DNA of 64,000 nucleotides from NCBI RefSeq assembly GCF_000189635.1, contig NW_002476426.1:248001-312000 (forward strand), given 5' to 3'. Position numbers and translations under genes: made by a program. Origin of the DNA: Tetrahymena thermophila SB210. Taxonomy: Eukaryota; Ciliophora; Oligohymenophorea; Hymenostomatida; Tetrahymenidae. Of the stretch, positions 15,123 to 49,292 are shown piece by piece. Under the pieces are notes generated by a model. The model searched no databases. It was given only the letters and a program-made list of their open reading frames with translations, and had not been told where the DNA came from. Each line of letters begins with the position of its first letter. The first letter of the stretch is position 1.

Positions 15123-18100
15123 TCAAGAATTATCTGCATCATTCTCTTCTTACAAAGCATTATATTATTATCCTCCATTAGCAATACTTGGCATTTAAAA
15201 TTTCTTTACTGTATATTTTGCTTATTATGGCTCTTATTTCTAAACTTGATTTTCAGTTAATTCTGTAGTTTCAGGATTAGCATCTATTTATTTTTCATTA
15301 TTTTTTAATGTTTTACCATTTTCAGGATTATTTTCATCGCTCTTATTTTCGCCATTTTAATTTAATTTTTCTTCTTCTTTACTCTCCTATAATTTCTCTT
15401 TGCTTTGCTCCTATTTATTTTATTTAAGATATATATTTTTATAAAATTAATTATTAAGAATAATATACTTGCTATTCTTTAATTCTTCCTTATACACTTA
15501 AAAATTCTTTACATTTTTAACTAATCTTATCAATTTCCTCTTAATTTTTTTAAACAGGTTCGTTAAGATCTACCAAAGGGGCAATATACTTTTAAGCCTT
15601 TATTTTTTATATTTAAATTAGATAAACACTTTTTTAAAAGTAATTTTCTTACATCAGGATGAATGGGCTCAAAGTCTATTAGAATTGAATTCAAATTACT
15701 TATGCTTTCAATAATATTTTTTTCAATTTGTGAAGGTATCTACTAAACTAAGTTGTTAAGACTTTCATTTTAGGGATTTACAATTCTTAATAAAAGATTT
15801 TGGCTAATATCAAGCTCAAAATTTATTCCTTTTATTTGTTATAGCTTAATCAATATTTCAATAGATTTTAATAAAATTTGTTAAAACTCCTCATTTTTCT
15901 CCAAGTTTTGAATTTTTTGTGAATATTTCACTAAACACTATTTTTATATTTTAAAAATTTATGTTGATTTGTTTTTAATTCATTAAAATTTACTTTGAGA
16001 AGAGCAGTTTGTATTTCGTAAGATGACTATTCAAAAACTTAAAGAAGTTAAACATTATTTAAAAGATTTAGCAATTTCATTACCTCATTACTATCCTATT
16101 AATTCATTAGAAAATAATTATTTTATAAATATTCTTTTATCAACTTACTTTCATTAATTATGAGTATTCTCCCACAATAAACATAAATGTTTAGAATATA
16201 ATTTCCTAAGCAGTGATAGGTGAATTACTAATTTTTTAATCGTTAGCTTCAATTGTTTTGATTCTAAAATAATTAAACGTTTCATCAGATTAGTTAAGCA
16301 TTAAATGGCTTAATTCACTTATAACCTAATACGACAATGAAAATATTGTCTTACTCAATCCATCTATTCTTACCATTATATCCTTTTTTTATTTTAAATC
16401 AATAGTTAATTTTATAAAAGAACTTATTTTTAAAAAATATTTCATTTACATATATCATATTTTAAATTTCGAGAGCATTTTCTGCAGAAAGTACATTTTT
16501 ACTTAAGCATGAAACAACAGTTTCTATCAACCAGTCATAATCGCTAACATATTCATAGTCATTTGCTTTGGTGCATGCAATTATACAAGAAATACTTCTC
16601 CTTTAGAGTCTCATGAATTGGGCAGATTCTGTTCTTTTTGATTTATTCTACTGCTTGATTACAATTTGCTTCAGTACTATTTCTATAAAGTCTTCATAAA
16701 TTTATTTGTTCATAAAATTCTAAAAGATATCTAATATTTAGAGTTTTGTGTAAGCATCGCTTGTTCCATCAAGTGTTTCCATTAAAAAGCTTTTGTATTC
16801 GTTGATCATGACTTGATTAGTAGAAATCATTTTATTTAAAAGGTTGAATCCTAAGCTTTGCAAATTTGCGTCGTCATGCTCTATAAAAATTTTTACTTTT
16901 TCGCAGGCTAAATCATATAAACTGGCATCTTCCTTAAAGAATTCAATGACTGAATTTAGTAATTCATATTCCAATGCTTTTGAATTTGTTGTTGTAAGAA
17001 GATTGCTATATATTTCTTACAATTTTTTAACTAAACGGGGTTCAAGTCTTATCATTTTGTGGAACTTTATTTTTTATAACATTATTATTTAAAATTGTTG
17101 TGTTGAAACCAATAATAATTACTGTTTTAACCATTTTAATCAAGAACCAATTAGATTTTTGTTTATTTATTAGTTCATAAAGAGGTTTGATGAATAATGG
17201 AAAGAGTTTTGGCTAAACATTTAACACACTATTAACTATACTTGTAAAGCATGCCAATACAGCTTTTTAGTTAAAAATAATAGATTTAATTTTTTTTCAT
17301 AATATAAAAAGCAAATACTTGGATTGTCTTCTTTTAAAATAATTGAGTCCAAAATGTTTTCTAAATTTCCTTGGATAGTTTAAGGGCATACTTAAAAAAT
17401 TTTTGCAACTAACGCCATGGCTTTCTTTCTAAGTATTGGTTTATTGCTTTTTAATATTTTTATAGAATCTTCAATCAAAATTGGACCCATATCTGCAGTA
17501 ACTATATTAGTAACGCAGCTGAGTATACAAGAAACCTCAACGTGGTTAGATTTCATAATTTCCTTTTGATTTAATTTAAAATATTTTACTTTATTTGTTA
17601 TTTTTGTTTTTAACATTAAAAATATGCTTTTAATCATAAAATATAGCTGATCTATTATCTACCTAAGTTATCTTATTTGAAATCATTGTTATAATTCAAG
17701 AAATTAATATGATTACCTTTTTAAACAGATTTGTTGCCATAAAAAGACTTTGGCTTGAAGGATCAATACAAACAGGTACCTATAAGCAAGCCATTTTTTT
17801 AGGTCCAAAAGATGAGCAACTAAGACAATTGACTATCAAAAAGTCTAACTATCTCAAATCAACTCCTTCCATTTTAAGCTTTTGGATTTATATTATTAAA
17901 TCATAAGGTTTATGTGTTTTTAAAATTAAATGTAAACACATATTAAAAAGTATGTATAATATAAAACCATCTTAAAAAATTAAATTACAAAGAATAGCTT
18001 TTGCAATGCAATTTGAAGTGTTTTTGGGTCAGAGGCTTTAAGTTCTTTTTTAATTTCTTCAAGTTAATAGCTTAAAATGGCTTTTTATTCTTATTAAGGA

Positions 18101-18168
18101 CTAGCTCTCACTTGCTTAATAATTTCGCTAATTGTTTTCTAAGGATTGAAGATTTTCTTGACTTTCAT
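15123..18168 (-). CDS. AP-3 complex subunit delta (adaptin N-terminal HEAT-repeat protein)
   Basis: Spliced exons give the typical large-adaptin trunk. From the N-terminus: KKELKASDPKTLQIALQKLF, then LKMEGVDLRQLDFLIVNCLS (cf. the KLxYLxMxGxD motif), then SLFMATNLFKK joined across an intron to EIMKSNHVEVSCILSCVTNI. RKKAMALVAKIF follows, then KSNWFLIKMVKT, then MIRLEPRLVKKLQEIYSNLL, then YELLNSVIEFF. The NW-LIK and LEPRL-KKL blocks are diagnostic of the delta chain of AP-3, which sorts cargo from endosomes to lysosome-related organelles. The start is ATG at 18168 (MKVKKIFNPQKTISEI) and the stop is TGA at 15125-15123. Several introns of about 50-170 nt are visible, for example around 17285-17338 and 17560-17730. 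The C-terminal part is low-complexity (TENQVQKQEPQQAKYTVKKF), as in the hinge of other delta chains, and no ear domain was recognised. Confidence 0.82.
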
Positions 18169-19010
18169 TTTTACACTATTGGCTATTTAACTAATATGCT
18201 TTTTGATGATATGATTTGGGCTATTTTTTTTAAGTTTTCTCAATAATTAAAGCAAGTAAATTTTTTTTTTCTGTTTTAATAAGATTATTTAATTGCCAAA
18301 ATCGCTTTAATAAACTTTATAATTAAAGGATGAAGCAAGCAGAAAAGTTATCAACATATAAAAAATATTAATTTTTAAAACGTGTATCTAATGAGTGCAA
18401 AATAAACAAAGAAATATCTATTTTCAATCACTTGAAACTCATATAAATTCATAATGACAAATCAAAACTTTTAAATTAATGCAATATCTTTTTTTTTGTC
18501 AAAAATCAATCAATTAAATCAATACTTGAATAGAAAAAATATTCTAAATTCCAAAACGTAATTCTTAAAAATGATGCAATTTGATAAATAAAATATATTA
18601 AAATAAAATCAATTAGTTAATAAATTTTAAATTAAAAATTTTGCCATCTACTCTTTTTTTGACGTTTAAGATATTCAAATCTACTCCAATTTCAGCTAAA
18701 AGTAAAAAAAAATAGTATATTGATGCAGGGTAATTTAAAATAATAAAGTAAATTAATCAAACAATTATGATTAAAACAACAAACTAAAAATTATATAAAG
18801 AAATTGTAATCGCAATTACTTTAAATAGTGAATTTATTCAAATTAGATTAAATAAGATAATTAAAATAAAGCGCTTTAAACAAATAAAAACATAAATATA
18901 AATAAATACTTTTGAAAAATTTTTATAATTTTGTACTTTTAGTTTTGAATCAATTATAAATATCTCATGAAAAATATTCATATTGATTTGTTGAAATAAT
19001 TTCTTTTTGC
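18169..19010. other. AT-rich intergenic region
   Basis: This is upstream of the AP-3 delta start and downstream of the aspartic protease stop. Nothing conserved was seen on either strand. Confidence 0.6.
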
Positions 19011-20552
19011 TCAATGTTTATGCTATATTTTACTATATTTCATTTATTTATGTTCTTTATTACTATCTTAAATTTTTTACTCCAATTTTTAACTCTTTTC
19101 TTTAACGGAATTATAGTCTTACTTTGTATTTATGAATTCTAAAGAGGTGTCTAGTATATCTTTTTGGAGCATTGGAGGTTATGTATTTTTATGACTTTAC
19201 TTCTTTTTATAGAAAGATATCGTAGAATCATCTTAATTAAACACAGTATATTATGTTCTTATAAATATATCTCCAAGAATAATCACATGTTCCATTTCTA
19301 AGCCTAGATTCATCCCACTCACTCTTACATAGCAAACAGACTCATCACAAAGCAAATATTAATTTGGATAAATAAGAATATGCCTGCTTTATTCGCAAAG
19401 AGTGAATTTGAAAATAGGGTATACTGATTCATCTGTAGCCTCACATCTCAACAAATTATATTTATCATCAATAGCACAATTTAACTTCTTGAGCTTTTTA
19501 AAGAATTTAACAAGTATCTTAAAATCATTGTCATTAAATACAATAAAACTAGTTCCAGAATCAATAATTGCCTACTTAGACTAAAAATGCAAATCGATTT
19601 CTACATCTGAAATAATTGGAGCTATCTTTTATACTTAAACTGACCAATACGATCTAAAAGAGCAAGGACAAGTAAAAAAATCGCTGTCATCAGCTAATGA
19701 GGGATCCACGGAATCACCTCCTAAAATAAAAAAATCTTTGTTAGTCATACCAAAATTTATATTTTCAGCTTCTCCAGAAAGAGAAAATGCAAATTATCTT
19801 TTAGTAATTTATCCCTGCTCTTTAAGATTATCTAAAATAGTTTTTCTTCCATCACTCATTGAACTAAATCCTAGTCCAAATAACCCGTGTCCTGGGAAAA
19901 AATCGAGATCAAGCATTGAAGTTACAAGTAGAAAATCTTGATTATTTGCAATAAATTTATTGTGAGCAAATCCTATTTGGTCTCTATAAACTGATGCATT
20001 TACTTCTCCTTTGCCATAAGTTATTTAAATAGTCTCATTTTAATTCCCACAGGTGGTACTCTTATCACAGTCAAAGAATTTCTTAATTCCTACCTACTAG
20101 CATGTGCTGCATGATGCATGAGATAACCAGGTGTAGGAACTTCCAGTATCTAGCATTACCTAAAACTCTTGCCTTTCAGATCCTACGTAAATATCTACTA
20201 AATAGGCATTACCATAAGTTGTGTATAATGGAAAACTAGTATAGTTTCCGTGGTTTGGCTTGGTTGTGTTATTATTTTGCTAATTATAATTATTTACATG
20301 TGCAATAAATTTTCTATTAAATTTCTGTTTGCTATTGCTTTGACTCTATTGAGTTTGATTGCTATAATATGTAGAAGAACTAAGCCAGCTGCTACTCCTC
20401 TCCTACTTTTGAAAAAAATAAACCTATTAATCTAATATTTGAACCATGCTATTTAAATCTTTATAATCATTTTATCTTTAAATCTCCAACACATATTGCT
20501 TGGTTAAAGCTTAGGAAATAAATAAAAGCTAAAGCACTAGTTTTAATATCAT
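19011..20552 (-). CDS. secreted pepsin-family (A1) aspartic protease, 513 aa, intronless
   Basis: A single exon runs from ATG at 20552 to TGA at 19011. The N-terminus MILKLVLQLLFISQALTK looks like a signal peptide. A Ser/Asn/Gln-rich propeptide-like stretch of about 90 residues follows. The first catalytic motif is VMLDTGSSYTWL with Asp near residue 135. The second is AIIDSGTSFIVF with Asp near residue 331. Other family landmarks are GHGLFGLGFSS, FFILGGDSVDP and the C-terminal VIILGDIFIRTQYTVFNQDD. After this the chain carries an unusual Lys/Gln-rich tail of about 60 residues ending in KYSKIQHKH, instead of stopping near the usual C-terminus. The enzyme is an endopeptidase of the secretory pathway, probably lysosomal/phagosomal or secreted. 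Location is inferred from the signal peptide only. Confidence 0.9.
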
Positions 20553-21020
20553 AACTATAATTTTTTTAATTGAATTGTTAAATATTTTTAAAAATTGTTA
20601 AGTAAAAAATTATCTTAAGGCTTTAGTTAAGTAATTAATAATAATTAATTAGTATATAGAATAATACCATATACCTTCTTGGTAATTAATTTAAAAAAAT
20701 TGTATAAGATTTATTTTTTTTTAAGGCTTCCATAGACAAAAAATAGACTAAATAATTCAAATTGTTCAATATTTTTTCAAGTTAAATTATGTGATAAGAA
20801 AGAAAAATCAGATAAAATTCATATTTAAATTGAAAGAAATAGATTTCTAAATCGGAAATACTTATCATCCTTAAATCTAAAAAATACTACTTTTTGTTTC
20901 TAAACCAAAATATTAATTTTATCAATAAATAATTTGTTTGTAAATTTATACTTAGATGTATCGTTTTTTATAAAAAACTACATATTCAAATGATTATTTT
21001 ATTTATATACTTCTTCATTT
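20553..21020. other. AT-rich intergenic region
   Basis: This is the spacer between the protease start and the end of the first giant surface-protein gene. Nothing conserved was seen. Confidence 0.6.
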
Positions 21021-24000
21021 TCATTATAGTATGATTAGTAACAAAAAAACAAAACAAACATTCAAAACTTTAGCGTTAATTGTCTAAACTACAAGAATTG
21101 TATCTTAGGTAGTGAAAGAAATTATTATAGGTTATGTTACTTCAGCTTCTGAGCTAGGATCATCTACAGAGCCAATAAAATATGCAGTATAACTATAATT
21201 TGAAAATAATTTATGAGAAAAATAAGAATATATTAAAATTTATTTACTCAGTTCCTGGCTAAAGTTAGATAAACTTGAATTCTTAGATTACTTCTCTTTA
21301 GCAGTATCTCATTTCAAAACTAAATAAATTTTAATCATAAAAATTTAATCCTTTCTTAATTTAGTCTGGGGAAGGCGAAGTATTTGATTTTCCTTACTCA
21401 ATCCCAACTATAATAAATCCATCCAAATTTTTTAACTTTAAATAAGTTAAAGCTGTGGTGGTAAACACTTGTTTTGGTTAAGCTACAGCAATATCAATTG
21501 TACGAGTAAATATATTATCTTAAGTTTAAACAGAAACTATTTGAGGATAATTTGAAGAACTTGGAAGATAGGGAATGAAGTTATTTATAAAGTTGCTCAT
21601 TATGATTTGTTATTTAATTAAAAAATTAGTGTTATCTTGTTATATTGTGTAATCAGGAAGAATGTAATACATGTACCTAATTTTTAAATTATATATATAT
21701 TTATATTTAAGTAAAAACCAATTTTATGAATAATTACGGGTAGTTAGCATTGATTGGGTTCCTAACATCTCTATTATTATAATTAAAATTCTTGTAATTT
21801 GGATATTAATTACAATGTGTATCCTTATCTGATAACACCCTTTAACTTGGCAAAGTGAAATATTTTTAAATTGAGCATGTTATTTACATAGTTTACTGAA
21901 ACGTAAGCAAGCCATTAAAAAAGAAAGTTATCTTTAAGAGATATGATCCATTACTAAGAGTTTTCCAAGTTACTGATTAAAATACACTAGTTAGTTAATT
22001 CTAATTTTAGCAATAATATTTAAATGAGTAGTAAGTATTTGCCTTTAAATTATCAAAAGTTTTATAAATAGGCTAATTAATATATGAAATATCAACTCCA
22101 TAAATTTTTTGTTTGAGATCTTTATAAGAAGAAACAGTTGGTTATAAACCTTTAACTCCAGTAACAATATTTAGAATATCATTAAAAGCTATATTCTATG
22201 TAGAAGGATCTATGCCTTTTATTCGAAAATAAATAAATTAAAACTAAAAATTATCATGAATATTAATTAAATCTTTGTTAAATTATATAATAATTAAAGT
22301 TTAATTTAAAAAATAAATTAAAGATAATCAACAGCTATGTCATTTATTTAATATTGTAAAAATACTACTTTAACTAGCAAATTCTATAATAATATAATTA
22401 TTTAATTGTTTTAGGTTACCTATTACCCAGAATGCCATTCCAGGCTAGTTGCATTGAATTTATAAAGAGACAGAATTTTATAAAACTTATAGAATTGTGA
22501 TTGGTGAAGCTAAAGGGGCTACATTGTTCTGAGAAATATACTTTATAGTAATTTAGCTTGGAGGTAAGTATGCTAATTAGTTTACTCCGCTAACTTAAAA
22601 TGTCAATAAAATTTATAAATTAACATTACTGGGATTATGAGTTAAATCTTTAAGTAAGAAATACATTCTACTATCATTTGAAGTACCAGTAATTTTATTG
22701 ATAAGGTAATTTCTATTATTTAATTCAAAATATAAATTTATTATATAAAAATGAAAGAATTGATTTACTAATCGAAGTCTAGATTGTTAGAATTTGTATT
22801 TTAAAGCAAAGGAGTAAATATCACATTATCTAACGGCATGCAATTATAAAAGTCTAATTCAATGGGTAAGGAAATACCACTTACAGGAATTTCATAGTAG
22901 TATTACCTCGCATTTATTTAGCAAGCCTCAGAACTAACTATTACTTTTAGGTTTGGTATTATTGAATATAAATTAGCATTATCATTAATTTTAGTTGCAG
23001 AGAGTGAATAAATTCCAGGCGCTGTAGTTGTCAAGGCTCCCATTGTAAATTAAATATTATTACTACCCCTAATTGTAAATAGGGTAGCGGGCTTTAATTT
23101 AAAAAGATTTGCGAATCCAGAAAGATTAATCCCGAATGATATAAGATAAGTTTGATTGTTTGCAGGTTATAGATTTATCAATTTACTGTAATATCCTATG
23201 TTGACTATCACTGTTCTTGTGTTAAGAAGAACTTAAGATTGTATTATCATATTTATATTTGTAGAATTTACTTATTTATTCATACCATAAATAAACCAAA
23301 TCAAGTCTATTTTAGTTGTATCATTGGTGAATGAATAATAATTTGATTATTAAATTAAACTTATCCCAACTACATTTGTAGTGTAAGAACCTATTGCCAA
23401 ATCAGGAGACTGAAAAAGATAAAGTCTGATATAATTTTAAATTTATTCAGGAATATATTAGGGAGAATATATTCCTTCTAATAATAGCTTATAGCTGTAC
23501 CAAGTATTTGTTGGAACTGATGAAAATGTTATTTTAATAAGTCTTTAGGTAAAAAATACACAAGCAGTATTTGATAAAACTGTGTTTGTATTTATTTGAA
23601 TAAGAGTGCATGTAATTACTTATCCTATTTAATTATTGGAGAAACTGGAAGGAAGCTAAAGATAAATTGGAATTGAGGAGCTTAGCTAAGTACTAGTTAC
23701 ATCAAAAGCTATATTTAAGTTGTAAACAGATCTTATTAAAGTATTTGAAATTTAAACTGAAGAAATTATAAAAGAATATTGACTAGGAACAGTTAGTTCA
23801 GCGCGTGGTGTGCTTATATAGGAAAATTATTTGATACCATTAGAAAGTATAGCATCGTCATCGATACCTATCCATACTTCATTATCACTAGCTGTTGGAT
23901 CTTTATTTTTCAATTCTGGTTAAGATATTCCATGGATAACAATATGGAATTCAATATTTGCATAAACATTTTAATTAAACCAAAGGACTAGTCTATTATC

Positions 24001-27000
24001 GTTAATTAACTCACAATAAGCTAATTTAAAATCTTAATACTAGATAGGTGTTGGAATATTTTTAACCCTTGTATAACACTCAGGATTAACTTCTCTATTT
24101 ACACCAACTCCTACATAATAAGGGAAATTTATATAGATTCTTGTGTAATAATTTAAATTTATTGTAGGCTTAATAAAGAAAGTGTAAGAAGACTCAAATC
24201 CTTATTAGTTAAATAATTTAGAGAAAAGAGATATGTAGAGAGGAGATAAAATGGTTGGATCAATAACACCTTTACTAATAGCCATTGCATAAGAGTAGCT
24301 ACCAGTGACTTAGCTAGTTTGGATTACTACTGCTCCATCCATCCATTATCCTTATATATTAAAAGTACTTGAAGAGCTACTTGGTGTGTATGTTCCTAAG
24401 CATTTCAAAGTAAAAATATATTAATCTGGATTTCTAAATTAAGTTTTTGGATATATTCTAATATCTCTCAAGTTAGCATTATATACTATATAACTCCATC
24501 TCCAACTTAACTTAAACTAATCGTTAGGAACTACAGTAATAGATGTAGGAGCTTCATAAACAGAGCATCTGATTATTAAGATAAATGAAAAATATGTTAT
24601 AAATAAGTAATATTGTTACTGAAATAATTTTTTTCATAAGATTTTAAATATTTAGGTAAGATAAGCATTTATATAGAAGATAGTAAAAAAAATTTACCTT
24701 ATAAATTTACTCCTTGAGGGTATAGCTTAGTACGGTGCAATCAAAAATCCAAAGTCAAAGGAATAGAAAGAAGTAGAATAAAATCTTTCTCTAGGTGATG
24801 AAGAAAATGTAAAATTAAAAGGAGATTTGTAATTTGCATTTTTAACTTCAAATTATAAGTTATTTATAGTCAACACTTTCAAATAAGGTTAAGTAGACAT
24901 TAAAAAGTTATTAGATAAGCATTGTGAAAAAAGAATAAAATTTCCAATAGTGGTTAAGGGAGTTGAAAGAATATTTCCAAAAACTCTTCCTCCTGTAATT
25001 TTTTAAGTTGGCAAGTATATTAAAATGTCATATTTAACACCAGATACAGAAGCTTAAGAGCTTGCTTTTATAATTAAAAAAAAAATTATGTTTAGCAATA
25101 AATTTTTGAAATTTAAAGTAAATTTAATTTTCTAAAATAATTTGATTACCATCAACATACACTGTGAAAAGGAGATATTCAATTACATCTAAAAGGTATT
25201 TTTAGGTCGGCTTTAAGACTACTTACCATTTCTAAGTTGATTAAGAAACTGAACATGTAAAATAATTTGATAAATAGTTATTTAAATCACAAACTGAAGA
25301 AGCTAAGGCTAGTGAAGATAAATTTACTGAGAAATTTATTTGGATTACTAAAAAACCATATCCTGTTTATGAAGAAGGATCTAAAGAAGTTTTAGCATTG
25401 ATTTAAATTGAAAAATCTACTGCTTATTTACCTACTGACATGGGGTAAATATTATTCATGACTTAGTTTACTATACATGTGTTATAATATGTAGCCACCG
25501 ATTATGATTCTTGTTAGTACGAATAAACTTTGCCTTATCCAGAAGAAAATGAATACATAAAAATTGGAGTGAGTTACAGTTAGTAAGCAAATTAGTAACT
25601 AAAAAAGGGATTTATCCAAGTTATAGATATAGTGCCTAATAGCTTAGCATCAATAGGACAATATACGTTGTATATTGTAAACTTGTCTTAGTCTGGATAT
25701 TATCCTATTATGTCATTATAAATATAATTAAATTTAGTACAATACTATGACACTCCGAAAGGTGGGTTTGTAAAGCCCAAAGTACTAGGCCCAAAAACAT
25801 TATAATACAAAGAAGAGATAGTAACACCTGCTCCTGATTATCCAGGATTAAAATTGTTATTATGATTTTGATAGACTTAGCCTTAATCTTAAATAGAAGT
25901 GTTTGCTGTGCCTAAAGGTTAAACATTAGTCATATCCAGTTTATATTAACTTTAGTTAGCTTTTTTATACAATAATATATTAAAATTATATCAAATATTT
26001 TATTCAATTACCTGGCGTAACAGACCATTAACTAGATGTGAATGATAAAGGTGCATTTGTGATAATAGCTGAGAAAATAGGGCTAATTGGATTAGCTATA
26101 TTACTATAAGTAGGAGCACCGTACACCCTAAATACATTAACTATTCTAAGTTAATTAGGAACTCCGTTTGATGTTTTCGAAAAATCGCAAAAGGCCACAA
26201 CAAGACGCTTTGGCATTAAAATTTGAGATCCATATAGTTTATTTTATATTGGTATTAACAAATTAAAATCATTTTCTATATCTGTTAGTCCTGTAGCCAA
26301 TACCATGTTGTAATTCATCCATGTTTCTTTTCCGCTAATTCCATTCGAATTATAAAAATAGCAATTGTTAGCTGAGCATCCAATATCCTTTTAAGCTTAG
26401 CCTTGAGGATTATAGAAATTTAAGTAGGGTTTTAGCTCAACAGATTCATCAAAAAAAACCTTTATAAATTTTATATATTATTAAAAGTTAAACATACAAT
26501 AAATATGGATACTGCTATTGCAGGAGCACCTAGGTATTCAGTTTAAGCTATGCTTCCACCTACTCTTAAAAAAGTAGGAAATCTGTGACCTGGGTTGATT
26601 GAATTCTCACTGAAGTTGATATAACTTATTTTAGAGGTTTTAAGAGGATTAAGCTAAATTGTATATGCATTAATTAGCTAAGCTGACTATACTGTATATG
26701 ATAAGGGTGTTCCAGCTGCATAATTAGCATAATCAAACCATATTACAAAATCTAATAAATCATCATCAGCTTACAGCTATGAGTGAAATCCCGTTCTAAA
26801 CTTAATTCTTCTCATAGCAAAAACTCCTCCGTTTCCATTTTATTAAACTGAAAATCCCCTCCAATTGTTGCAATCACTAACTTGAGTTGCTATTATAATA
26901 AGATTTTTATTAACTTAAGTCAAAGAAAAAAAAATATTTACAAATGCATTCGAATCTTTATATATTATATGGAACGGTAGCAGTTGGAGGGCTTGTTTAA

Positions 27001-29213
27001 AGATAATTTAAAGGACTCACAGCTGCTTGCTAATTGTACCAAGAACACTTTAATTTATTATAGCACTAGATTTAATCAACAGTCCATTTATTTGGATCAG
27101 AGGCAGTTGCTGTTTAAAAGGCAGCAAAGTCGAGACCCATTTAATCATATCCTTATTCATAAATTATAACATTAGGATTATATAAGATATTCATTCTTAT
27201 CATATACTAAGGAAAACTTGTAGATCTTTTGATTTTAAAATAGTAATTTATATACTTTAATAAATATAATGATTTTATATTTATAAAAATCTTACAAAGG
27301 AATCAATTAGCTTTAGTCAACTTTCAAAAAGAAAAGCAGCAGCTAGTTTGATACATCAGAAGGAATTATACCAACGGTATTTGACATATCAGATGACAGA
27401 AAATTTTCTACTGCATTTGGTACAGCTGAATATTATTCACTATCAGTGTAAGAAACGATTTATGTAGTTCCAAGTCCATACGCCAGACTAAATCCGTTAA
27501 CATCGTAAAATTCATCATTAATTTTAATATTAATATTTTCTCCAGGATATGGGTTGTATAATTTGTTGCTTGGATAATTTTTTAAAAAAATTTAAACTCC
27601 TCCATATCCTTATGCAATAGAAATTGTAGATGCATATGATACTTTCACTGAAACAAAGTAATCTTAATTTTACTATATCAATGCACCAACCTAAATGAAT
27701 TAAAACAAAAAGATCATTATTATTCCAAAATTTATAAAAAAATTACTTATTCACAAGCAACATAAACATTATTAAAAGAATCGACTTATTGGTAGCAGAG
27801 TGGATATTAGTTTAAGTTTAAAGCAGGAAGATTAGTTACAATAGAGTTTTCTATTATTCCCAATGCTTTTCCTAAGCATACTAAAACTTTATATTCCTAA
27901 CCGATTGGTATAGCTAAGTTGACTTAAAATGAAATGTAAACACTATTTACAGTAGGAAGATTAACAGAACTAAACAACTTATAAGGCGAATTTTATAGTC
28001 CTTGTTCTTATTATGACATTCCCCACATAAAATTAAATTTACTCTTTGTAATTTAAATAATTTATGTCTAAAGAGCATTTGCAGCAACTCCTTTCTCTGT
28101 TGTTCTTTAGGTAGTAATATCCTATCCATGCACCCTAATATCAGCCTTTTAAGGAGAAGAGAGAGGATTATAAATTTAAACATTAATTCTGAAAGTTTAA
28201 CCAACAAAGATTGGTTGATTTATCTAGAAACTAATTTAATTAAGATTTTAGTTTACGCTACAAGTTGAATTTTAAATCTATATTTAAAATTAGTTATTTA
28301 ATATATATTTTTAATTAATTTAGAATACCTATGGTATAGAAGTGCACATAGGAGAATAGTTAACTTAACAATCTAAAATGTCTGAGAAACATGAAAGTCC
28401 AAATTTAAAGTTAAAAATAGGATCTGTTATTTATTTTTTAAAAATATTAATTTATTTTTTTGAAAACCACAAAAATATTTTATAAAATTTGTGCTTAATC
28501 TTAATTTCTATTTAATTAAAGCCTCAAATTTAATTACCTGTTAAAGTTGTTGTAGGATTAATTGTAATTGTATAAATAGCACCACTATAGTAGCTTATTC
28601 CTGGTGTTATATCCAAATATGTATTATATATATAACCAGGAATTGTTTGTGAATTTATTGTTGTATTGAAACTCACTTTTATTAAAGTTGTTTGTATGTT
28701 AATTCCTATTTGGGTTCTTAAGAGATAGCCAAAGTAATTATTCATATCATATATTATTGGTGAACAATTTAATATACCATAGCAGGTATTTGAAACTGTA
28801 ATCATTTCGACAGGTTCAATTTATGAAATTGACCAATTTATTAATGATGGGTCGACGTGCATGACTATTGAATACCAAGTTGTAGCATTTAAAGCTATTC
28901 CGTATTAGCAGTAGTAATTTTTTAATGAAGGAACATAATTTATGCAATTGACTCCAGACACTAAAAGGAGAGAACTCTCATAAAGATACAAATCTGAGCT
29001 TAGGACTTTAATATTTGGATCAGGGAAGTTTATTTAAATATACTCCTTCTCAGATAAACCAGATTCTAGGTTAAAATACATCTAAAATCTATTAGGTGTA
29101 CCACTAAAATCATCTAATGTTATGATGTCCCATGATTTTATATATCCACATTTTATAAGCTATAAAGCACAGGCGATAAATACTATTATTAATTAGATTG
29201 TGAAATCAGTCAT
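21021..29213 (-). CDS. giant secreted/surface protein, paralogue A (probable GPI anchor)
   Basis: The start is ATG at 29213 (MTDFTIQLIIVFIACALQLI, a signal-peptide-like segment) and the stop is TGA at 21023-21021. After the signal come WDIITLDDFSG and MYFNLESGLSEKEYIQINFP. Threonine-, Asn- and aromatic-rich sequence then continues across the gene, for example CELINDNRLVLWFNQNV, IEFHIVIHGISQP and FYNCMPLDNVIFTPLL. The chain ends in KVLNVCFVFLLLIILQ, a hydrophobic tail with no basic cytosolic tail. With the signal peptide, this suggests GPI anchoring. Several introns of about 50-80 nt interrupt it, so the product should be about 2,500 residues. The next gene (30460-38655) has the same start, end, length and some of the same intron positions, so the two are tandem duplicates. 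No named domain was recognised and function is unknown. A role as a surface or mating/food-vacuole glycoprotein is only a guess. Confidence 0.72.
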
Positions 29214-30459
29214 TTTAGCTCAATTTATTAGTTAAACTTAATTGTAAAATCTAATTGTATAGTAGTTAGGAAATTGGGAAAACAAAAAATTTTCTACTTA
29301 TAGAGTTTTTGAGCTGATGATATTCTAGATTAGACCACAAAAATATTAAGAACTAACAAATCTTTTTTAACTATTAATTAGCTTTAGTTGAAATGTTTAT
29401 TACATCTTAATTTTGTAAGGCTAATAAATAATTTCAAAAATGAATTAAAATACATCAATCAATATATGTAAATTAATTATTGGTTTTTTTACATGAAATT
29501 CTAAGCTCTAATTTGCTTTTCATATCAATTTAAAGTTTATTTCTTACTAATATAAGAATTATCAATTCAAAAATATAAAAATATGAATCCTTTCTTTAAT
29601 ATTAATTGATAAACTATTATAAATATCTTATTAAGAATTTTCAATTTTTTATTTAATTATTTCTTTTTTAACAATAACTTCTCTACCTGAAAAAGCAAAA
29701 ACATAATTTAAATACTTCATATTTATTTTTTTTAATTCTTAAAATACTTTAAATATATATTTTTATGTAAAAAATATAAATAAATTACAATTTAAAATGT
29801 TTAAAATTTTAATTAAATGAAGATGAATTTTAATAATTTAATTAGTTGATAAACAATTTAATGAAAAATTTATTTTTAGAATGATTTACATCTTATTTAT
29901 TTTTAAAAATGTTTTGAAATACTGTAAAACTTATAAAGTTAGTCACTCTCAGTACATATATTTTCTGGCTGAAATTAAAGATGCCTTGGGAAAATTCATC
30001 AAAAAAATGGTAATAATTTAAACTGAATATTATGAAATTATCAAATTACAATAGATACGATGTAATATTTTGATTATTTTGTTTATTTACATAAAACTTT
30101 CACCATTTAAATAAATTCATTTATTTTAAAAAATTAAGAATGTGATTATTTAAAATAGATTCTGATAGATAGTATAGATTATATAATATTTTTAAATAAT
30201 TTTAAAAATTTATTTATTATTTATTGTACCTAATCTCATATATTACAAAAATACCAAATATTTTTAAAATTATTCACTAGTGGCTTTTGCTTTTAATAGG
30301 TTTTGAGGAGCCAAATTTTTAATGATAAAATAAAAAATAAAAATATTTTTTAATTAATTTATTTATTAATAAAGAATGCTGTAAGTTATATATATATATA
30401 AATCAATATAATAATATAGTTAGTTAAGTCAAATTAAATTATTTCATATTCTTATTTTT
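29214..30459. other. AT-rich intergenic region between the tandem paralogues
   Basis: About 1.2 kb of A/T-dominated sequence without a supported gene. It should carry the promoter of paralogue A and the 3' flank of paralogue B. No obvious direct repeat marking the duplication junction was seen by eye. Confidence 0.6.
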
Positions 30460-33400
30460 TCAAATAATTATCAGTAATAGTAATGATATCAAAATATATG
30501 TGAAACACAGTATTTTAGAACTAACAGTTACTACACTATAAGAATCACCAAGAGTCTTAAAATTTAGAACAATAGGCTAAGTAGTGACTGCGTTTGGACT
30601 TGGATCATCATTAGATCCATAGAAATAAGCAGTGTATCTTTTTTTAAATGCTTTTATAAGAAAATAAAAAAGTAAAAAAATTTTACGTTGTTCCTGGTTG
30701 AAGTTAAATAAATTTAAATTCTTATTGAACCTCTCTCTAACTATATCTCATCTCAAAAGTAAAAAGTGTAGCGTTTTAAGAGTTTAAGCCTTACTTAATT
30801 TGAGTTGCAGAAGGGATATTATTTTGTAATCCCTACTCTAATCCTACAATTATATATCCATCTACAGCACGTAGTGTAAAATAAACAAATGTAACTGTTT
30901 GCTAAGTTAATATTTATCCAGTTTATGCTATCTCAGGAGTATTTACTGAAACTACATCTTATGTTGATACATCAGATAGACTTGGTAAGCTAGATGAGTT
31001 TGATACTGTATTAAGGAAGGACATAATGAAATTATTTGCATTTACTTATTCTCTCACTACCAAGTTTGTCAAATCCGTAGTTGCTAAATAGTTAGGCTAT
31101 ATGTAAAAACTATACCTATTTTTTAATTTGATATATTAAATTTTTTTAATTAAATTTATAATTAATTTATTACAAATATTTTCCATTTTATTTTGACCTA
31201 ACTATAAAATTATTAGCATTTAAATTTTTATAATTAGGATAACTGCTACAGGTAGTATAAAAGTCTGTAATAACCCTTGCTTGTGGTATTTAGAAATATT
31301 ATGCCAGTGCACATGCTATGTTTTTCTACTAGTTAAAAGTTATATACTAAGAAAAGGAAAAAGTAAGTTTCATCAAAAATGATCCGTTATCGGGTATTTT
31401 CCAGCTTGTAGTCTATATTATGCTTTATTAGTTCATTTAATTTAAGCAAAAGTATTTAAAGTCATAATTTCCATTTGGCCTTAAACCATTGAAAACTTTA
31501 GTTAAAGGTGTAGCTGAGTAAGCAATTTCTGTACCAAACATTTTAAGGTTTGGGTCATTTGGATCAGTAATATTAGTAATTAGACCATTAGCTCCAGTCA
31601 CTTAACTTTTCATCACATTATCATCAATATTAGACAAAGAAGGATTTAAACCTATTAAATTATTAGTTTTAATCTTTATATATAATAATAATTGTTTTTT
31701 ACCAACAACCCAAAAGATAATAGATGGCTAACTACATTACATACTAAATGTTACATTATTTTATCCAATTTATACACTAGATATCTAAGAAGCTACAGGA
31801 GATAGGCTATAAGAACTTTAATTAGGATCAACTAAAACTAGTGTAATATCAGCAGGTGCTTAAAAAGATTGACCATTTGTTCCTCCAATTTTAAAATCTA
31901 AGGTAATAGCATTACCAATCTTGCTTCTGTCCTTTGATATCTCCTAAATAACGAAAAACATTCTAGGATCTAATTTGGCACCATTAATAGTATTCACTAA
32001 ATATTAACTAAATTTATTCAAATTCAAAAGTTAATTAATTGATAATTTCATTTTTATAAAAAATAAATTTCTTTAGATTAAAAAAAAATCTATTTCTTCT
32101 ACTTTAAACATAAAAGACAAAAAGTTTAAAAAAGCATATTCAAAAAAGATTTACCTGGCAATATTAAGATTATTAGAACTCAAGTTATTAAAAATTGGAG
32201 TATATGTAATGTCATTAACAGGCATACAATTAAAGAAATCAAGCTCTATTGGAAGTGAGAATCCTCCTATGGGTATGTTATAAGTCGAAAATCTTGAATT
32301 TATTTGGCATAACTAGCCACTTATTATTACTTTAAGTGCAGGTATAGGAGTGTAAATGTTTTGAGGATCACCAATTTTATTTGCGTTTAAAATTTCAATA
32401 CCTGTTGGGGTTGTTTAAAGTGCAGCCATACTAAACTGCATCATGTTATTACCACTAAAAACATTAAATGTATTAGGTTTAAAAGAAAACTTTGAAAGAT
32501 TTCCTAATAACGTTATATTCATGTTAAGCTAAAATACATTTTAATCTGGCTGTAATTAAATTAGCTTTTTGTAATATCCGATGTAAACATAAACAACTCC
32601 ATTCGATTCTAAATTTTAAGCCACTATGTTATTGTTTGAATTAGCTGGATCGATACTTTTTACTATGTTGTATATGTACCAGCCAAGATTTTGTCTATTT
32701 GGATCTGAATTAAAAGAGACAACTCCAGCTTAATAGTTCAACCCCATGTAATCAACATATTGATCAAATAAGTTAGATAATCCATATGAATTGTAAAGTA
32801 AGAAGCGGATTTTATTCTTTACCAAAAGAGGAACATAATTTGGGGTTGGGAGGTTTTAAATTGCTAAAACAAAGCTATTAGAAGTGGAAGCTGAGCTTGG
32901 AGTTTAATTATTTCTTTTGATGATAATTAATCTTGAACTCAAAAAATCGCATTCTTAAGCTAAATTTGTATTCATATCTCCTTGATTAAATAATGTGCAT
33001 GCATTAATTTAACCTAATTTATTCATGTCTGATAAACTTTAAGTCAGCAAGAGATACAATAAATATCCAGGCTGAAGTTAAGAGGGATCTTAAATGAATG
33101 TCACAGTCAATGTAAAAGTCGAACGAATAATCGTGTTGCTTACTTATACACTTGTGACAGTGAAGGGCTGTAAAGGATAAGATGGGGTAAGGGCTGGACT
33201 GGGTGTTTTTTAATCAGCTATGAAATTAAATTCTTATATTCCATTAGAAAATAATGAATCATTGTCAAATCCTATCCAAATTTGAGGATTAATTGTGTTA
33301 AAACGATAAAAAGTTGGTTACAAAACTCCGTATATATCTAAATAAAATACTGTTCCAAGTGTAATTTATTTATTTGACCAGACTGAGATTCTCCTCTCTC

Positions 33401-36400
33401 CTGTTACTTCACAGTATGCCAAAGAATAATCTGAAAATGCAGGAAATGAATTTGATGCCACAGAATTTAGTCTAATATAACATTCAGGATTATTTTCCCT
33501 ATTTATTCCTGGTGGAATGAAGTAAGGAAATTCTATATAAATACGAGAGAAGTAATCAAGGTTAAAATTGTTAGTCTATAGCTAAAAGGAGTATATTGCT
33601 TCGTTGCCATTGCTCACCCAGTATTTTCTTTACAATTGTACTATTGAACTCTAAATATTTGTAGTACTTATAACATTTTATGAAGGGTATGGATATGGGG
33701 AAGCTGTTTTTTAAAGAGTTTCAGTACCATCGATCCAAGAAGCCTATAAAACTTCTGATGCTTCAACTGCACCTGGAGCTGGCACTATACCTCCATAACA
33801 TTAAAGTAAGAAGTTATAATTACTTGGCTGCATAATATCTGCCTTAGGATATATTCTTACATCTTTTAGAGCTGCATTATACTCAATATGCTACCATCTC
33901 CAACTAATAGAATAACTTCCATAAGTGCTAGTACCTGTTTAAGTTAATGTGCTAGGTGCTTCATATACAACACACCTTTTTAAATATATTTTTGATTATT
34001 AGCTTTGATATAAAAAACTTTAATAATAATGTCGTTACCTAAATTTATTATCACCAACCAAATTAGCATTTCCTGCTCTTAAGAAACCAAAATCAATTGA
34101 AAAATAAGATGAAGAATAGAATCTCTCTCTTTGTTGAGGAATAAAAGTAAAGTTAAAAGGAGATCTAGCTCCAACATTAAATATATCAAATTATAAACTT
34201 CCAACACTCATATAATTACTGTAAGACATTGTTGAAAAGGAAAAGCTTCCTCCTGTGCACTAAGCAAATAAAACATATGTGTTTGAAGCTGCGTTAGTAT
34301 CAAGACCAAATATTCTAACATTTCCCCCTTTTAAGGTAGGTAAATTTACAGAAATTTAATAAGTTAAGTTTGGTATACCAGTAGTTAATCCATTTGCTTT
34401 TTTAAAATTGAAAATAAATAAAATAAACACTTTTAAAAAAGTTAATACTTTTAGCATAAATTTAGAAAGTAACAGTCTCTAAAACTTAAAACAAATAAGT
34501 AGATAAAGGCTAAATAACAAAGGTTATAGCATTTGGAGTTGTTGAAAAGGAGCAAGTTAGCTATGTTGAAGATTGAGTTAATAATGTGCAAGTATTTGCA
34601 ATAAAAGAGATTTATGATATTGATTAACTAAAAGTAAAAACTATCTATACAAAGCCAAAGCCTATTAATGCCTAACTATCAAGCTGAAGCTATGCTTTTA
34701 TTTGATACGATAACTATACTACTTACTTTCCTAAAGAGTTAGGATAAATTGGATTCATGATGTTGTTAATTATGCAAGTATTATAATTCAAAGAGCTTAC
34801 TTACTGGCTATCAGAATACATAGAAAATATTTTACCAACACTAGATGAAAAGGCATAAGTAAAAATACTTTATATATTCAAGTTTGCAGTAAAATATTAA
34901 TTGAAATACGGATTATTCCATACAATATTTCCTTACCTATTAAAATAGATATATAAATTTAGTTAATATCCTGAAATTAATATTAATTTTATTACGCTGT
35001 ATTGAGATTAGGATATGGCTAATCGATAGGACAAAATGAGCAATAAATTGTTTTTCCATCAAAATCAGCATAAAGACCTCCATTTGAATTATCATTAAAT
35101 GTATAACTAAAATTTGTACAGCTACCAACAACACCATAAGGGGGTGAAGCAAATTAAAGCTAACTAGGACCGAAAACATTAAAGTACAGACTACATAATG
35201 TAACTCCAGCACCTTTGTATGTAGGATTAAATGTGCCTGTTGGAAAAGTTGTTGAAGTATCTGCTGCAAAAAGAGTATTAGTACTTCCAATGGGTTAAAT
35301 ATTTAAAGTTTAAAGAGTATATTTAGCCAAATAACCTAAATTAAAAAATATTAAGTTTAATAAAATTATATTTTAAACTAAATCTTTTACCTGTATCAGC
35401 TTACCATGTTAAAGAGCTAAAGCTCAAAGTGTTAGGGAATAAATTTTGGTTCAGTCCGTTTATAGGAGTAATAGCTTGAGTAATTATTCCATTTACAGTT
35501 GCTCCATAAACTCTGTATACTGATAATACATTTAGTTAATTTCTCACCCCTAATGAAGTTCTGTTAAAGTTACAAAAAGCAATATTTAACCTGGTTGGGA
35601 AAGACACTGAAGATCCACCCATAACATTTTAAACTGGAATAAGCAAATTGAATTCATTTTCAATGTTCATGAGATCAGTAGCTAAAACCATCATGTTGTT
35701 CATCCATGTTTCATAACCGTTAACTACTTTGGTATCATATAAATAACAGGTACCTGCTGAACATCCTATTTCTTTGTTAGTTTATCTACCTAATGTACCT
35801 TACTCGTCATAAAACCAATTAACTTCAATTGATTAGTCAAAGAAAATCTATATTTTAAATTTTATTTTAATTTTGTATGTTTTAAGAAATCATTCATAAT
35901 TTACTGCTATTGCTGTAGCTTACAAGTTTTCAGAAGGCATTATACTACCTCCAATCCTTAAAAAAGTAGGTATTTTATGACCAGGATTGAGGGTTTTATC
36001 ACTAAAGTTAACAAAGCTGATCTTAGCATTTTGCAATTAGTTATATGAGATGGTATATGCATTGATCAATTATGCAGAAACAAGTGAATATTAAACTTGG
36101 TTGCTTCCAGTGATTAAACCTCTTTAGAATGCAATTACAAAATCAAGTAACTGGTCATCTGGCTATATTTAAGATTAAAATCCAGACTTGAACTGAACTC
36201 TTCTCATTGAAAAAACTCCTGAAAATCCTGAAGCTGTTGTTTTATATCCCTACCAGTTGTTACAATCACCAAAATTACTTGCTATTATTTATAAAAATCA
36301 TTGAATGAATAATAAAATACAACAGACTCTTTATATTATTTAATATTAAGAATAAATTTACATATGCAATCAAATCTTTATATATTATATACTGCTGATG

Positions 36401-38655
36401 TGGTAGAAGGACTATATTGTAAGTTATTGTTTGGTTTATTTTACCCATTTTAATTGTACCAAGTACAAGCATTTGCTGCATAACATGTTACTTAGTTAAC
36501 ATTCCATTAATTTGGGACAGAGCCAGATCCTAATTAAAATGCTGCAAAATCGATTCCAAATTAATCGAATCCTTGCTAATAAGATAAAACATTTGGATTA
36601 AACATTACTGACATTCTAAAATTGTAGACACTATTTCCTGGATTTCTTTAATAAAAATTTTATAATATTAACCAAGTTTAGATTAAAAATATTAAAAAGT
36701 TACTGTGTTAAACCAACATAACTATTTTAAGGTACTTGTAATAAAAACAGTAGTTATTAACTTTGATTAGACTATGGGATTATACCAACAGTATTTTTTT
36801 TACTTGAAGATAGGAATTATCCTATTCCATCAGCTGTTCCAGAAAGTGATTAATTATCAGGTACTGAAACAATTTAAGTATATCCAATACCAAACTGATT
36901 AGAATGAAATCCATTTAAATCTAAATATTCAGTATTTGCTTAAAGTTGAATAATGTCACCTAAAAAAGGGTTATATAAAGCAGCAGATTATTAGTTCTTT
37001 AATATTATTGAAACAGCACCGAAATTAGAAATTTATAGGGGAGTGCTGCTTGAATAATAAACTTTAGCTGCAACAAAATAGTTATAATTTTAATAAGCAA
37101 GAGCTCCAACCTTTTTTTATATTTAAAATTAGTTACTCAACAACAAAAATTTAATTTGAAATTTACTTGTTCACAGATAACACATGAATTAATAGCAGGG
37201 TTTATTTAGGTGTAGCAAGTAGGATTTAGGTTTAAATCTAAACGAGGAAGATTCGTAACAATAGAATTTGTCAGAATATCACTTGCTTGTCCGAAGCAAA
37301 CAGTAACAATAAACTCTTAGCCCATAGGTATAGTTTAATCAACAGTAAATGAAATTTTTACACTGTTCATTGTGAATAAATTAGGCCCACTTCTGAAAAG
37401 GGTGTATGGTATGTCTCCAGATAAAAGGGGTTAATTATCTGGAATTCCCCACAGGTAAGTGTATTTAGCATGAGAAATGTTGATTAACTGTGTTTTAAGT
37501 GCATTTTAAAAAACCCCTTTTTCAATAGTAGCCTAAGAAGTCTTTCCTACTGCATATATATTTATGTCACGCTAAGACTGGTAAATAGGATTTTCAATTT
37601 CTACTTTAATACGGAAAATCTAACCCTAAACTAAAGCTTGATTAATATTAAAAGTCAAACTACCAAATAATTAATCCATTATGCAAGTAGAATTCTGTAC
37701 CTTTGTTTAAATTTTAAGAAGTTTAATAATAATTTTTAAGCTACAAAAATTTACTTAAGTAATAGTAACACAACCTGGTAGACTATTTGAGTTACAGTTA
37801 ACAACATCAGAATAACATGCACCCTTAAATCTAAAATCTTAGCTGATTCCTAAAATTTTTATTTAAAAATAAAATATAATTTCTTTTCAATTACAGCAGC
37901 ATATTTTCTTTTTATAAATTTTGTAAAATATTCCTTAATTTTAAATAATTTTTATATCTGATACCTAACCCTAAATTTGCTGTACTTTGTTAAATTGAAA
38001 TGGTATAGGTAGCGCCTAAAGGATCTGATACAGTAGGAGTTATATCGATAAAAGTGTAATAGCTTGAGCCAGGAAGTAAATTGTAATTGTTTATGGCTTA
38101 AAATGAGACTTGAATGTTAGGACTTGGTAGGCTTTATGGTAGAGTATCATAAAGAAGTGCAAAAGAGTGATTCATGTCATAAATTATAGGACTACAACTT
38201 CCGCCTTGAATGCAAGGATCTGAAACAGTTTATATCATTATAGGGTCTTAGAAGAGTATCTAAGTAGGAGGCTTAGTTATTGAACTTAAAATTAAAGTAT
38301 ACCAAGTTTATGGCTGTAACTGATAACCAATTTAAAAGAAGTACCTAAAAGAACTCTAAAAGGGAGCAGGTTCCACAAGCCAGTATGCTAAGCTTCGTTA
38401 ATTAGCTATTAACATATTATTTTGATAAAGGTAGAGACTAGCCTTCACATTAATTCCCAAATTACGAGGAAATACTACTTAAATAAAATCACTAGGTCCT
38501 AATCCAGAATCCAAGTTGATATATAGTTTATATCCTTGTGTGGATCCATCATATCCTTGTATTTTTTCCAAATCCCATCCTTAAATGGTACCGCAGAGCG
38601 AGGATACTATTTGAAGTATTAATAGATGTATTGAAATCAAGATATATTTTTTCAT
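30460..38655 (-). CDS. giant secreted/surface protein, paralogue B (probable GPI anchor)
   Basis: The start is ATG at 38655 (MKKYILISIHLLILQIVSSL, a clear signal peptide) and the stop is TGA at 30462-30460. The mature N-terminus GWDLEKIQGYDGS, then LYINLDSGLGPSDFIQVVFP, parallels paralogue A. The C-terminus YTAYFYGSNDDPSPNAVTTQ matches YTAYFIGSVDDPSSEAEVTQ of A. It then ends in KILCFTYILISLLLLIII, a bare hydrophobic tail typical of a GPI-attachment signal. An intron next to the LQPGT segment (about 30635-30690) sits at the same place as one in A (about 21195-21250). The genomic span (8,196 bp against 8,193 bp) is almost identical. The sequences have clearly diverged, so the duplication is not recent. 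Function is unknown. The protein is large, extracellular and rich in Thr/Asn/aromatic residues, with no Cys-rich repeats like those of immobilization antigens. Confidence 0.72.
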
Positions 38656-46785: not shown

Positions 46786-48450
46786 ATGGCTAGAAAAAGA
46801 TCTGCTTTATCTCAAAGGGCTCCACCAGCACCTGATTTTAATGAAGAAAAGCGTTAAACAGATAATGCTAGCATAGAAAGACACATGGCTAATTTTTTTG
46901 CTGACTTAAGCAAAAATAGTTTAAGTGATATCTAATAAATCAGTTTACCAAATAATAGTTCATAATAAATAGATTCTTAATAAAAAGATTAAAAACAAGG
47001 CGCTGATGCAAATAATTCTAGCAACTAAACAGCAGAAGCAGTAAAAAAAGTAGATTAATCAAAATTAGATAAAATAAGTCAATTGTTAGCATCTAAAAAA
47101 TAAGAAGTAAATGCAGCTACAGCTTCTTCTACACCAAAATAAGCTCTAACTGATAAATTGAAAAATTTATTTCAAAAAAATGGATTAACTGGAGCATCTT
47201 CTACAAGTTCTTCAAGCACAGCTACTTTATTAGTATAAATATAAGAAAAACAATCTACAGCACCATAAAGTCATGAAAATTTAATATTGAAGTAAAAAGA
47301 AGAATATGACCCTGCTCGTCCAAATGATTATGAAATATTAAAGAAAGAAATCAATAAATAAAAGCAAGACTTAGAAAAGTTTAAGAGTAAAAAATCTTTA
47401 GGAAACAGCACTGAAGAAGAAGTAATAGTATAGCCTCAAAATAATATATAAAAATTATCATACAATGATGATTATGAAATGGAAGAAGAAGATGAAGATG
47501 ATGATTTTAGACCTGCTTTTGGTTTAGGAATGAAAAATAGCCAGATGGAAATAGAGAAGGATACAGCAGATCTCTACTCTAAAGGAGATTGTAATTTAAA
47601 TAATAATTAATCGATGTTTAAAATAAATAAATAAATTTAACAGCTGCAGATTACAATTATAAATATTTTTTAAAATAAAAGATGAAACTTCAGAATAAAA
47701 AGCTTATAAAATGATGGAAAAGCAAGGTTTTAAATTAGGATAAGGTAAATAAATAAATAAATTAAATAAATAAAATGCATCTTATAATCTTAAAAAATAA
47801 ATATTTATTTATAGGTTTGGGTAAGAACTAGCAAGGTATTGTGGCTCCTATAATTGCACAGAAAATAAGTGACACTTCAGCTATCATTACATAAAGTACT
47901 ATGGATTTATCTACTATATTACCACAAGAATTAGTTATGAAGAGATATTTTGAATAAAGAAACTTGTAATACTTTTTGCAAATTTGAATACCTAATTTAA
48001 TGCAAAGTAATATGTATAAAGGATTCCAACAAAGGTTGTTTGCATTATCAATTTGATTGCACCGTGGGAAATTGATGAAGATTTAGAAGAGGAAGTTACT
48101 GAAGAGTGTTTCTAATATGGAGTGGTTGTGGTAAATAAAATTAATATTTAAAATTTTTTCTTTTTTTGATGTTATTTTTTATTAATTAAATAATATAGAA
48201 TTTAAAAATATACGTTATGTCTTCTGAAGATTGTGAAGATGCTGTTAGAATATTCATTAAATATAATCAGTAAATTTATTCTTAATTATACTTTAATTGA
48301 GTTTTTTGTTTATTTATACATAGAGTGGAAGAAGCTATGAATGCCTTCACAAATTTGGATGGGCGTATATTTAACGGAAGATCAGTTATTGGATATTTTT
48401 ACTCTGAAGAAGAGTTCGAAAAGAATTAGTTATCTTATAATCTCTCTTGA
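46786..48450 (+). CDS. splicing factor 45 homologue (RBM17/SPF45; G-patch plus UHM)
   Basis: Exon 1 (46786-47590) starts MARKRSALSQRAPPAPDF. It includes the SPF45 landmark EEYDPARPNDYEILKKEI and an acidic patch, EMEEEDEDDDFRPAFGLGMK. The second exon (about 47681-47744) plus the third give a G-patch: YKMMEKQGFKLGQGLGKNQQ, continuing GIVAPIIAQKI. After further introns comes the C-terminal RRM-type UHM: PTKVVCIINLIAPWEIDEDL, EDAVRIFIKYNQ, and LDGRIFNGRSVIGYFYSEEE. Here R-I-F is the R-x-F motif that binds the ligand tryptophan of UHM ligand motifs. SPF45 is a second-step spliceosome factor recruited through SF3B1/U2AF-type ligands. The stop is TGA at 48448-48450. Introns are about 50-95 nt, one of them rich in TAAA repeats (from 47745). 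Confidence 0.92.
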
Positions 48451-49292
48451 TATTAACCAAAATTTAAAACTAATTAAACTCTAATATATTAAAATAATTA
48501 TCAATTAATCAAAATAATTCGATCTATATAAATAAATTTGGTTTTAACACTTAAAAAAATTTTAATTTGGATCTTACAATGATTTCCCAGTAAATACTCT
48601 TTATGAAACTTTTAAATCGTTATTAAATATAATGATAAATGAAAAAGTTTATGGACTGATAAAATAGACGAAATAAAAAAAGATGATAGATAGATAATTC
48701 CTACAAAAAAAAGATACTAAAAAAATACAATCAGATAAATTCAGTAGGACAAAAATTAATTAATAAGCAATTACTTAAATTTTCTAAAATTCTGATGAAA
48801 AAACAAGATTTTATAAAAATAGCATTTATTTTACTTGAATTTCAACTATTTATATTTTATATTTCATTTGAGTCGATGTTCTTTTCAAAATTTGCATTTT
48901 TTTAATAATTTATCTTCATTTTTATAGGTAGAGTTCAATATAAAATGTCTTACAAAAACACTTTTAAATATTGTAAAATTATGCAAGATTTTTTTTGTCG
49001 CAGAGATATGATAGAATGTTTTTAGATGGCTCTATATATAAATTCAGTAATCAGTAATTGAATTATTCAATTTTATAAATAGAAAAATTATAATAAAAAA
49101 ATTACAAAAAACATTTAGTTTTTTATTTTATTTATCAAGGAATTAAGAACTTAAAAAAATATTAAACATTCATCAATAAAACAAGCTATTAACAGCAGCA
49201 TTGTCAGAAATATTTTCTAATTTATACTAAAAAGCTTAAAAAAAAGTTTATATAATCTAAAATAAGTTTCACACTGAAAAAGCTATATTATT
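48451..49292. other. AT-rich intergenic region
   Basis: This is the spacer between SPF45 and the small acylated-protein gene. A 39-residue ATG-to-TGA frame at 48944 has no coding character beyond chance. Confidence 0.55.

Follow-up and report, generated by a model that had tools for sequence, protein, structure and literature searches.

A tandem pair of giant genes in the Tetrahymena thermophila genome

We analysed a stretch of 64,000 nucleotides of the Tetrahymena thermophila SB210 genome (contig NW_002476426.1, positions 248001-312000), called the window below, in which two long neighbouring genes, G1 and G2, encode giant proteins with the ends of exported chains. The original prediction for this locus had described two adjacent same-strand genes of 8,193 and 8,196 bp that share blocks at both protein ends and at least one intron position. 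Each protein was said to have a signal peptide and a hydrophobic end without a cytosolic tail, and no named domain was recognised in either; a glycosylphosphatidylinositol (GPI)-anchored surface family, serving as a coat, in mating or as the lining of a vacuole, was proposed. The genomic spans, counted with the stop codon, match these lengths exactly, and the minus strand carries both genes (Table 1). The reading frames are interrupted by introns, and the spliced coding regions of the predicted models come to 7,155 bp for G1 and 7,236 bp for G2, the G2 stop extending one base past the exon end that was used in the spliced-model alignment.

The models were produced with our own predictor, which uses a codon-position Markov model, GT..AG introns and the ciliate code with TGA as the sole stop. 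The predictor fused G1 and G2 into one model, and the gene ends were then placed by hand from the reading frames. By comparison of the two genes, one G1 intron (24697-24569) was re-placed and one 42-base G2 intron was dropped, so that the models are not independent of each other at these two places. All gene models reported here are ab initio predictions with hand-picked start codons.

The likeness of the two proteins extends well beyond the blocks that had been noticed near the start (NLESGLSEKEYIQINFP and NLDSGLGPSDFIQVVFP) and near the end (YTAYFIGS and YTAYFYGS). Aligned end to end, they are identical at 1,011 of 2,346 residues (43%), and because the similarity runs through the whole length rather than the termini alone, the alignment excludes chance as its source. 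Intron placement agrees in the same way, beyond the at least one shared position first proposed. Each of the 13 introns of G1 is phase-matched to one of the 14 introns of G2; ten fall in the same alignment column, and the other three are two columns off beside gaps. Both G1 and G2 are real genes on the minus strand.

The family of G1 and G2 has at least nine genes

Protein-query searches of the assembly (101 Mb in 445 contigs, the contig of the window being labelled C122) identified at least seven further members on seven other contigs, bringing the family to at least nine genes with G1 and G2. The same assembly holds a telomerase exon whose translation agrees with Protein Data Bank (PDB) entry 6d6v, the T. 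thermophila enzyme, at every letter of residues 1-48 and 70-204 out of the 204 given, the letters in between reading as an intron; by this match the genome is that of T. thermophila or cannot be told apart from it here. The paralogs are named after our contig labels (G17 lies on C17, and so on). The G1 query led to loci on C17 and C184, the G184 protein to C396, one conserved G1 exon to C390, and the core of the G390 protein to C441, C439 and C65. No new loci were obtained with a G1 module or the G396 core as genome queries. Nine is a lower bound, as the count rests on six protein queries and the search scored only the best candidates. The seven further members have modelled lengths of 2,254-2,425 amino acids (aa), the fetched C65 stretch lacking the gene start, and the calculated mass is 249.3-269.7 kDa in all nine models, with signal and tail included and G65 taken without its start.

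Pairwise identity among the nine proteins ranges from 18 to 42%. The tree pairs G1 with G2 as sisters (support 1.000) and joins to them first the C17 member and then the C184 member. Fifty columns are invariant among the nine, 14 of them cysteines; the identity table, the invariant columns and the tree of nine were all computed with an over-long start for G439. Among six paralogs 97 columns are invariant, and the densest hundred residues, G1 701-800, hold 15 of these. Cysteine content is 1.1-1.7% across the nine proteins. It is near certain that the nine genes form one family. Introns are well shared solely within the tandem pair: in a four-sequence alignment, two of 13 G17 introns match G1 exactly in column and phase, with two more within three columns, and none of 12 G184 introns matches exactly, with one within two columns.

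Two observations concern the surroundings of individual paralogs. Downstream of G184, at C184:786512-786722 on the minus strand (locus L055), lies a partial copy of the last ~70 residues of that gene, 73% and 89% identical in two pieces. This duplicated 3' end is found among genes that appear by eye to be RING-finger-like. G390 (loci L056-L057) is flanked by a gene for a cysteine-rich repeat protein and a protein-kinase-like gene, again judged by eye from the translations.

All family members end in a bare hydrophobic stretch

The signal peptides and tails predicted for G1 and G2 are both present, and similar ends recur throughout the family. We scored hydropathy as Kyte-Doolittle means over 15 residues and took as internal the windows that exclude the 40 residues at either end. 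In all nine proteins the C-terminal 15 residues score 2.06-2.93, and nothing follows the hydrophobic stretch. By comparison, a value of 2.0 is reached by one of 20,407 internal windows, in the G17 protein. The last 12 residues contain no charge in eight of the nine proteins and one lysine in G184. A hydrophobic start signal is present in all eight proteins whose start was fetched (best window 1.61-2.67), the start of G65 lying outside the fetched stretch; in G184 and G396 the start signal does not exceed the highest internal window (1.61 and 1.81). Because the tail is found in nine of nine members and the start signal in eight of eight that allow the comparison, export together with a bare hydrophobic end characterises the family as a whole and is no coincidence confined to the tandem pair.

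A T. thermophila GPI signal consists of an attachment site followed by a polar spacer at +3 to +8 and then a hydrophobic region that runs to the end of the chain (PMC4136848; this and the other papers cited are represented by the part of their text that was accessible). We read five tails by eye (G1, G2, G17, G184 and G396) for a small residue, a short spacer and a hydrophobic end. This pattern fits G2, G184 and G396 and is loose in G1 and G17. The giant exported family with a bare tail that the original prediction implied is supported, more strongly than that prediction could show, and a GPI signal is plausible.

A predicted Ig-like module

Consistent with the view that no named domain is present, a Pfam scan of four members gave no match above the cut-off, with five families matched up to E 5. 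Searches against PDB sequences gave no significant match; up to E 5, a four-sequence profile matched a single entry, a domain of receptor tyrosine phosphatase eta (E 1.4), which was not used. Below the Pfam cut-off, Transglut_C was matched at about the same place in both proteins of the pair (G2 residues 275-311, E 0.041; G1 residues 272-308, E 0.13, window about 28125-28235, minus strand), and we keep this weak match merely as a hint of an immunoglobulin (Ig)-like fold.

A structure model of one G1 module suggests, with modest confidence, an Ig-like beta-sandwich. In the fold comparison many Ig-like domains tied, with no single protein family ahead. AlphaFold2 run on a 599-residue exon gave a predicted local distance difference test (pLDDT) score of 38.8. 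Profile self-comparison points to a second, possibly related module next to the first (Table 1), and a MAFFT alignment of these two repeat modules fell into the wrong register. Used as a genome query, the G1 module found only G1, G2 and the C17 member, at a sensitivity too low to recover other members of the family. When viral and prokaryote contigs were scanned with the exon alignment, 44 and 36 pattern matches resulted, respectively, but no relatives.

Table 1. Positions in the window of the tandem genes and of the features predicted within them
Feature	Position	Strand	Details
Gene G2	30460..38655	minus	15 exons; 2,411 aa; 268.7 kDa precursor; from spliced model and alignment
Gene G1	21021..29213	minus	14 exons; 2,384 aa; 269.7 kDa precursor; from spliced model and alignment
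G2 signal peptide, about residues 1-20	38596..38655	minus	Hydrophobic N-terminus, 15-residue mean 2.19; putative cleavage site
G1 signal peptide, about residues 1-21	29151..29213	minus	Hydrophobic N-terminus, 15-residue mean 2.67; putative cleavage site
G2 C-terminal hydrophobic stretch	30463..30513	minus	ILCFTYILISLLLLIII; TGA stop directly after
G1 C-terminal hydrophobic stretch	21024..21068	minus	VLNVCFVFLLLIILQ; TGA stop directly after
G1 exon containing the greater part of the family's most conserved core	26513..26889	minus	G1 residues 701-800: 15 invariant columns among six paralogs
G1 module, predicted Ig-like beta-sandwich	23812..24249	minus	Used for structure model
Second G1 module, a possible internal repeat of the first	23293..23796	minus	Profile self-comparison, probability only 22-32%
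G2 counterpart of first module	33216..33653	minus	36% identical to G1 module
G2 counterpart of second module	32676..33191	minus	From alignment

Neighbouring genes

Directly downstream of G1, on the same strand, lies an aspartyl protease gene (Pfam Asp, E 3e-46; window about 19011-20756, minus), next to one whose product has an adaptin N-terminal region (Pfam Adaptin_N, E 2e-20; window about 15123-19000, minus); the predictor fused the latter gene with its neighbours, and its coordinates are approximate. On the other side of the pair, a predicted gene at 46812-53952 (minus) has a dual-specificity phosphatase domain (E 5e-22) after a long part without a Pfam match and may be two genes that the predictor joined. 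A further gene at 54975-59560 (minus) encodes a predicted protein of 1,106 aa that has hydrophobic segments close to both ends and matches no Pfam entry up to E 0.01. The nearby genes suggest no functional link to G1 or G2.

Interpretation of the family

Overall, we favour the view that the tandem genes G1 and G2, with at least seven relatives, encode giant exported proteins of the GPI-anchored coat or adhesion type, and put its probability at roughly 0.6. Its parts differ in strength. Export with attachment to a membrane at the C-terminus is likely, GPI as the form of that attachment is probable, and a coat or adhesion role is about an even prospect. The signal peptide would route the chain into the secretory pathway, where the C-terminal hydrophobic stretch, with no cytosolic residues behind it, would most likely give way to a GPI anchor. 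At ~265 kDa, and presumably disulphide-bonded and N-glycosylated, the mature chain would then serve in a coat or in adhesion, exposed on the outside of the plasma membrane or of the ciliary membrane. Probably the chains are built largely of Ig-like beta-sandwich modules. Of the three roles in the original prediction, a surface coat is plausible in view of size, ends and the Ig-like module; the mating and vacuole-lining readings gained no support.

The hydrophobic ends could also be explained if the C-terminal stretch were kept as a single membrane-spanning helix, making these ordinary single-pass proteins without a cytosolic tail. The stretches are strongly hydrophobic and some approach membrane-spanning length (17 residues in G2), and the attachment-site pattern, read by eye, is loose in G1 and G17. 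However, type I membrane proteins normally have a few basic residues after the helix, whereas in all nine family members the chain ends inside or right after the stretch, and the single lysine of G184 is the only charge in the last 12 residues of any of them. We consider a retained helix unlikely. It is far less likely still, and indeed very improbable, that the apparent ends are gene-prediction artefacts and that unseen 3' exons encode a cytosolic tail. The models are ab initio with hand-set ends, and the predictor ran several of them into neighbouring genes before they were trimmed at TGA, but the same kind of end recurs in every paralog at identities as low as those given above, just 18-42%.

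Where the proteins reside and what they do can be read in other ways too. A signal peptide and a membrane anchor cannot distinguish the plasma membrane from an organelle, and exported T. thermophila proteins do reach mucocysts (PMC9159632, accessible part), so that the family could belong to an internal compartment such as the mucocyst, food vacuole or contractile vacuole. A hydrophobic end in all nine members suits membrane attachment better than soluble cargo, a slight point against this reading that does not single out any one membrane. For the mucocyst docking particle a size of ~275 kDa has been inferred, with nine Mdl1p-associated proteins (PMC9159632). Such a particle would leave little space for a subunit of 265 kDa, again a slight point, the sizes of the nine proteins lying outside the accessible text; on the inferred particle size we rejected the docking complex as a candidate. 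A location in an internal compartment is a little less likely than a retained helix. Somewhat less likely again are mating-specific adhesins at the pairing junction. Large size and Ig-like modules would be suited to bridging, and loosely paired Tetrahymena cells are separated by a gap of ~50 nm, with little known of the first adhesion molecules, according to the accessible part of PMC12029339. Against this, the known recognition proteins MTA, MTB, MRC1 and their partners are built differently (PMC10901506).

Comparison with known protein families

Our literature searches, which were not keyed to gene identifiers, found no description of this family. Its closest parallels in layout are ciliate surface proteins. 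Compared for their fold, the staphylococcal MSCRAMM adhesins (SdrC, SdrG, ClfA) and the alpha-macroglobulin receptor-binding domain share 10% and 8% sequence identity, respectively, and come from other organisms with other anchors; a fold in common would indicate neither descent nor function.

The family resembles the mating-type recognition proteins in large size and in long, here presumably extracellular, regions. MTA, MTB and MRC1 combine large extracellular regions with a growth-factor-receptor domain and five transmembrane helices, and the other partners have two to eight helices or are P-type ATPases, as far as the accessible text of PMC10901506 describes them. In the four scanned members no growth-factor-receptor Pfam domain was found, and no run of internal hydrophobic segments stands out in the nine proteins, going by hydropathy means rather than a helix predictor. 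On these grounds we rejected an MTA/MTB-like identity.

The Ser antigens of the same species share the tandem arrangement and the hydrophobic C-terminal tail. SerH, SerJ and SerL are surface proteins with a C-terminal GPI signal, encoded in tandem arrays and built from repeats of 55-100 aa that contain 6-10 cysteines, and Ser antigens were screened via a six-cysteine block and a GPI signal with FragAnchor (PMC4136848, accessible part). The published six-cysteine block (within 120 aa) is absent from six of our nine proteins and occurs once, never repeated, in G184, G441 and G439. Without repeated cysteine blocks, membership among the Ser antigens was rejected.

The surface antigens (SAg) of Paramecium resemble the family in size and ends. 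They are GPI-anchored proteins of 250-300 kDa that form a layer of 20-30 nm over body and cilia, show a cysteine periodicity throughout and belong to families of mostly intrachromosomal duplicates (PMC12113882, in the part accessible). The family described here is likewise exported, at 249-270 kDa, with bare hydrophobic ends and one tandem pair. In contrast to the periodic cysteines of the SAg proteins, its cysteine content is 1.1-1.7%, and none of the five Pfam families matched in the four scanned members is a Paramecium surface-antigen model. SAg membership was rejected in the absence of cysteine repeats. By layout, then, the family is ciliate-coat-like, yet it stands outside the SAg, Ser and mating-type families.

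More speculatively, and on balance doubtfully, the family might form a second class of giant surface proteins in addition to the cysteine-rich Ser antigens, with at least nine GPI-anchored members of 16-20 Ig-like modules each (a rough count by length), which would be the counterpart of the Paramecium coat proteins on a different fold, as rods long enough to set cell-cell or cilium-cilium spacing (some 60-80 nm when extended, a rule-of-thumb figure based on chain length). For annotation purposes, at least nine genes that lack a named domain can now be grouped in a single family whose ends and conserved core are defined. In Paramecium, giant GPI-anchored coat proteins make up the classic surface antigens, and what they do is still poorly understood (PMC12113882, accessible part). 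A giant family with a matching exported layout and without cysteine repeats, in a genetically tractable ciliate, would offer genes open to tagging or knockout, through which the role of the ciliate coat would become a testable question.

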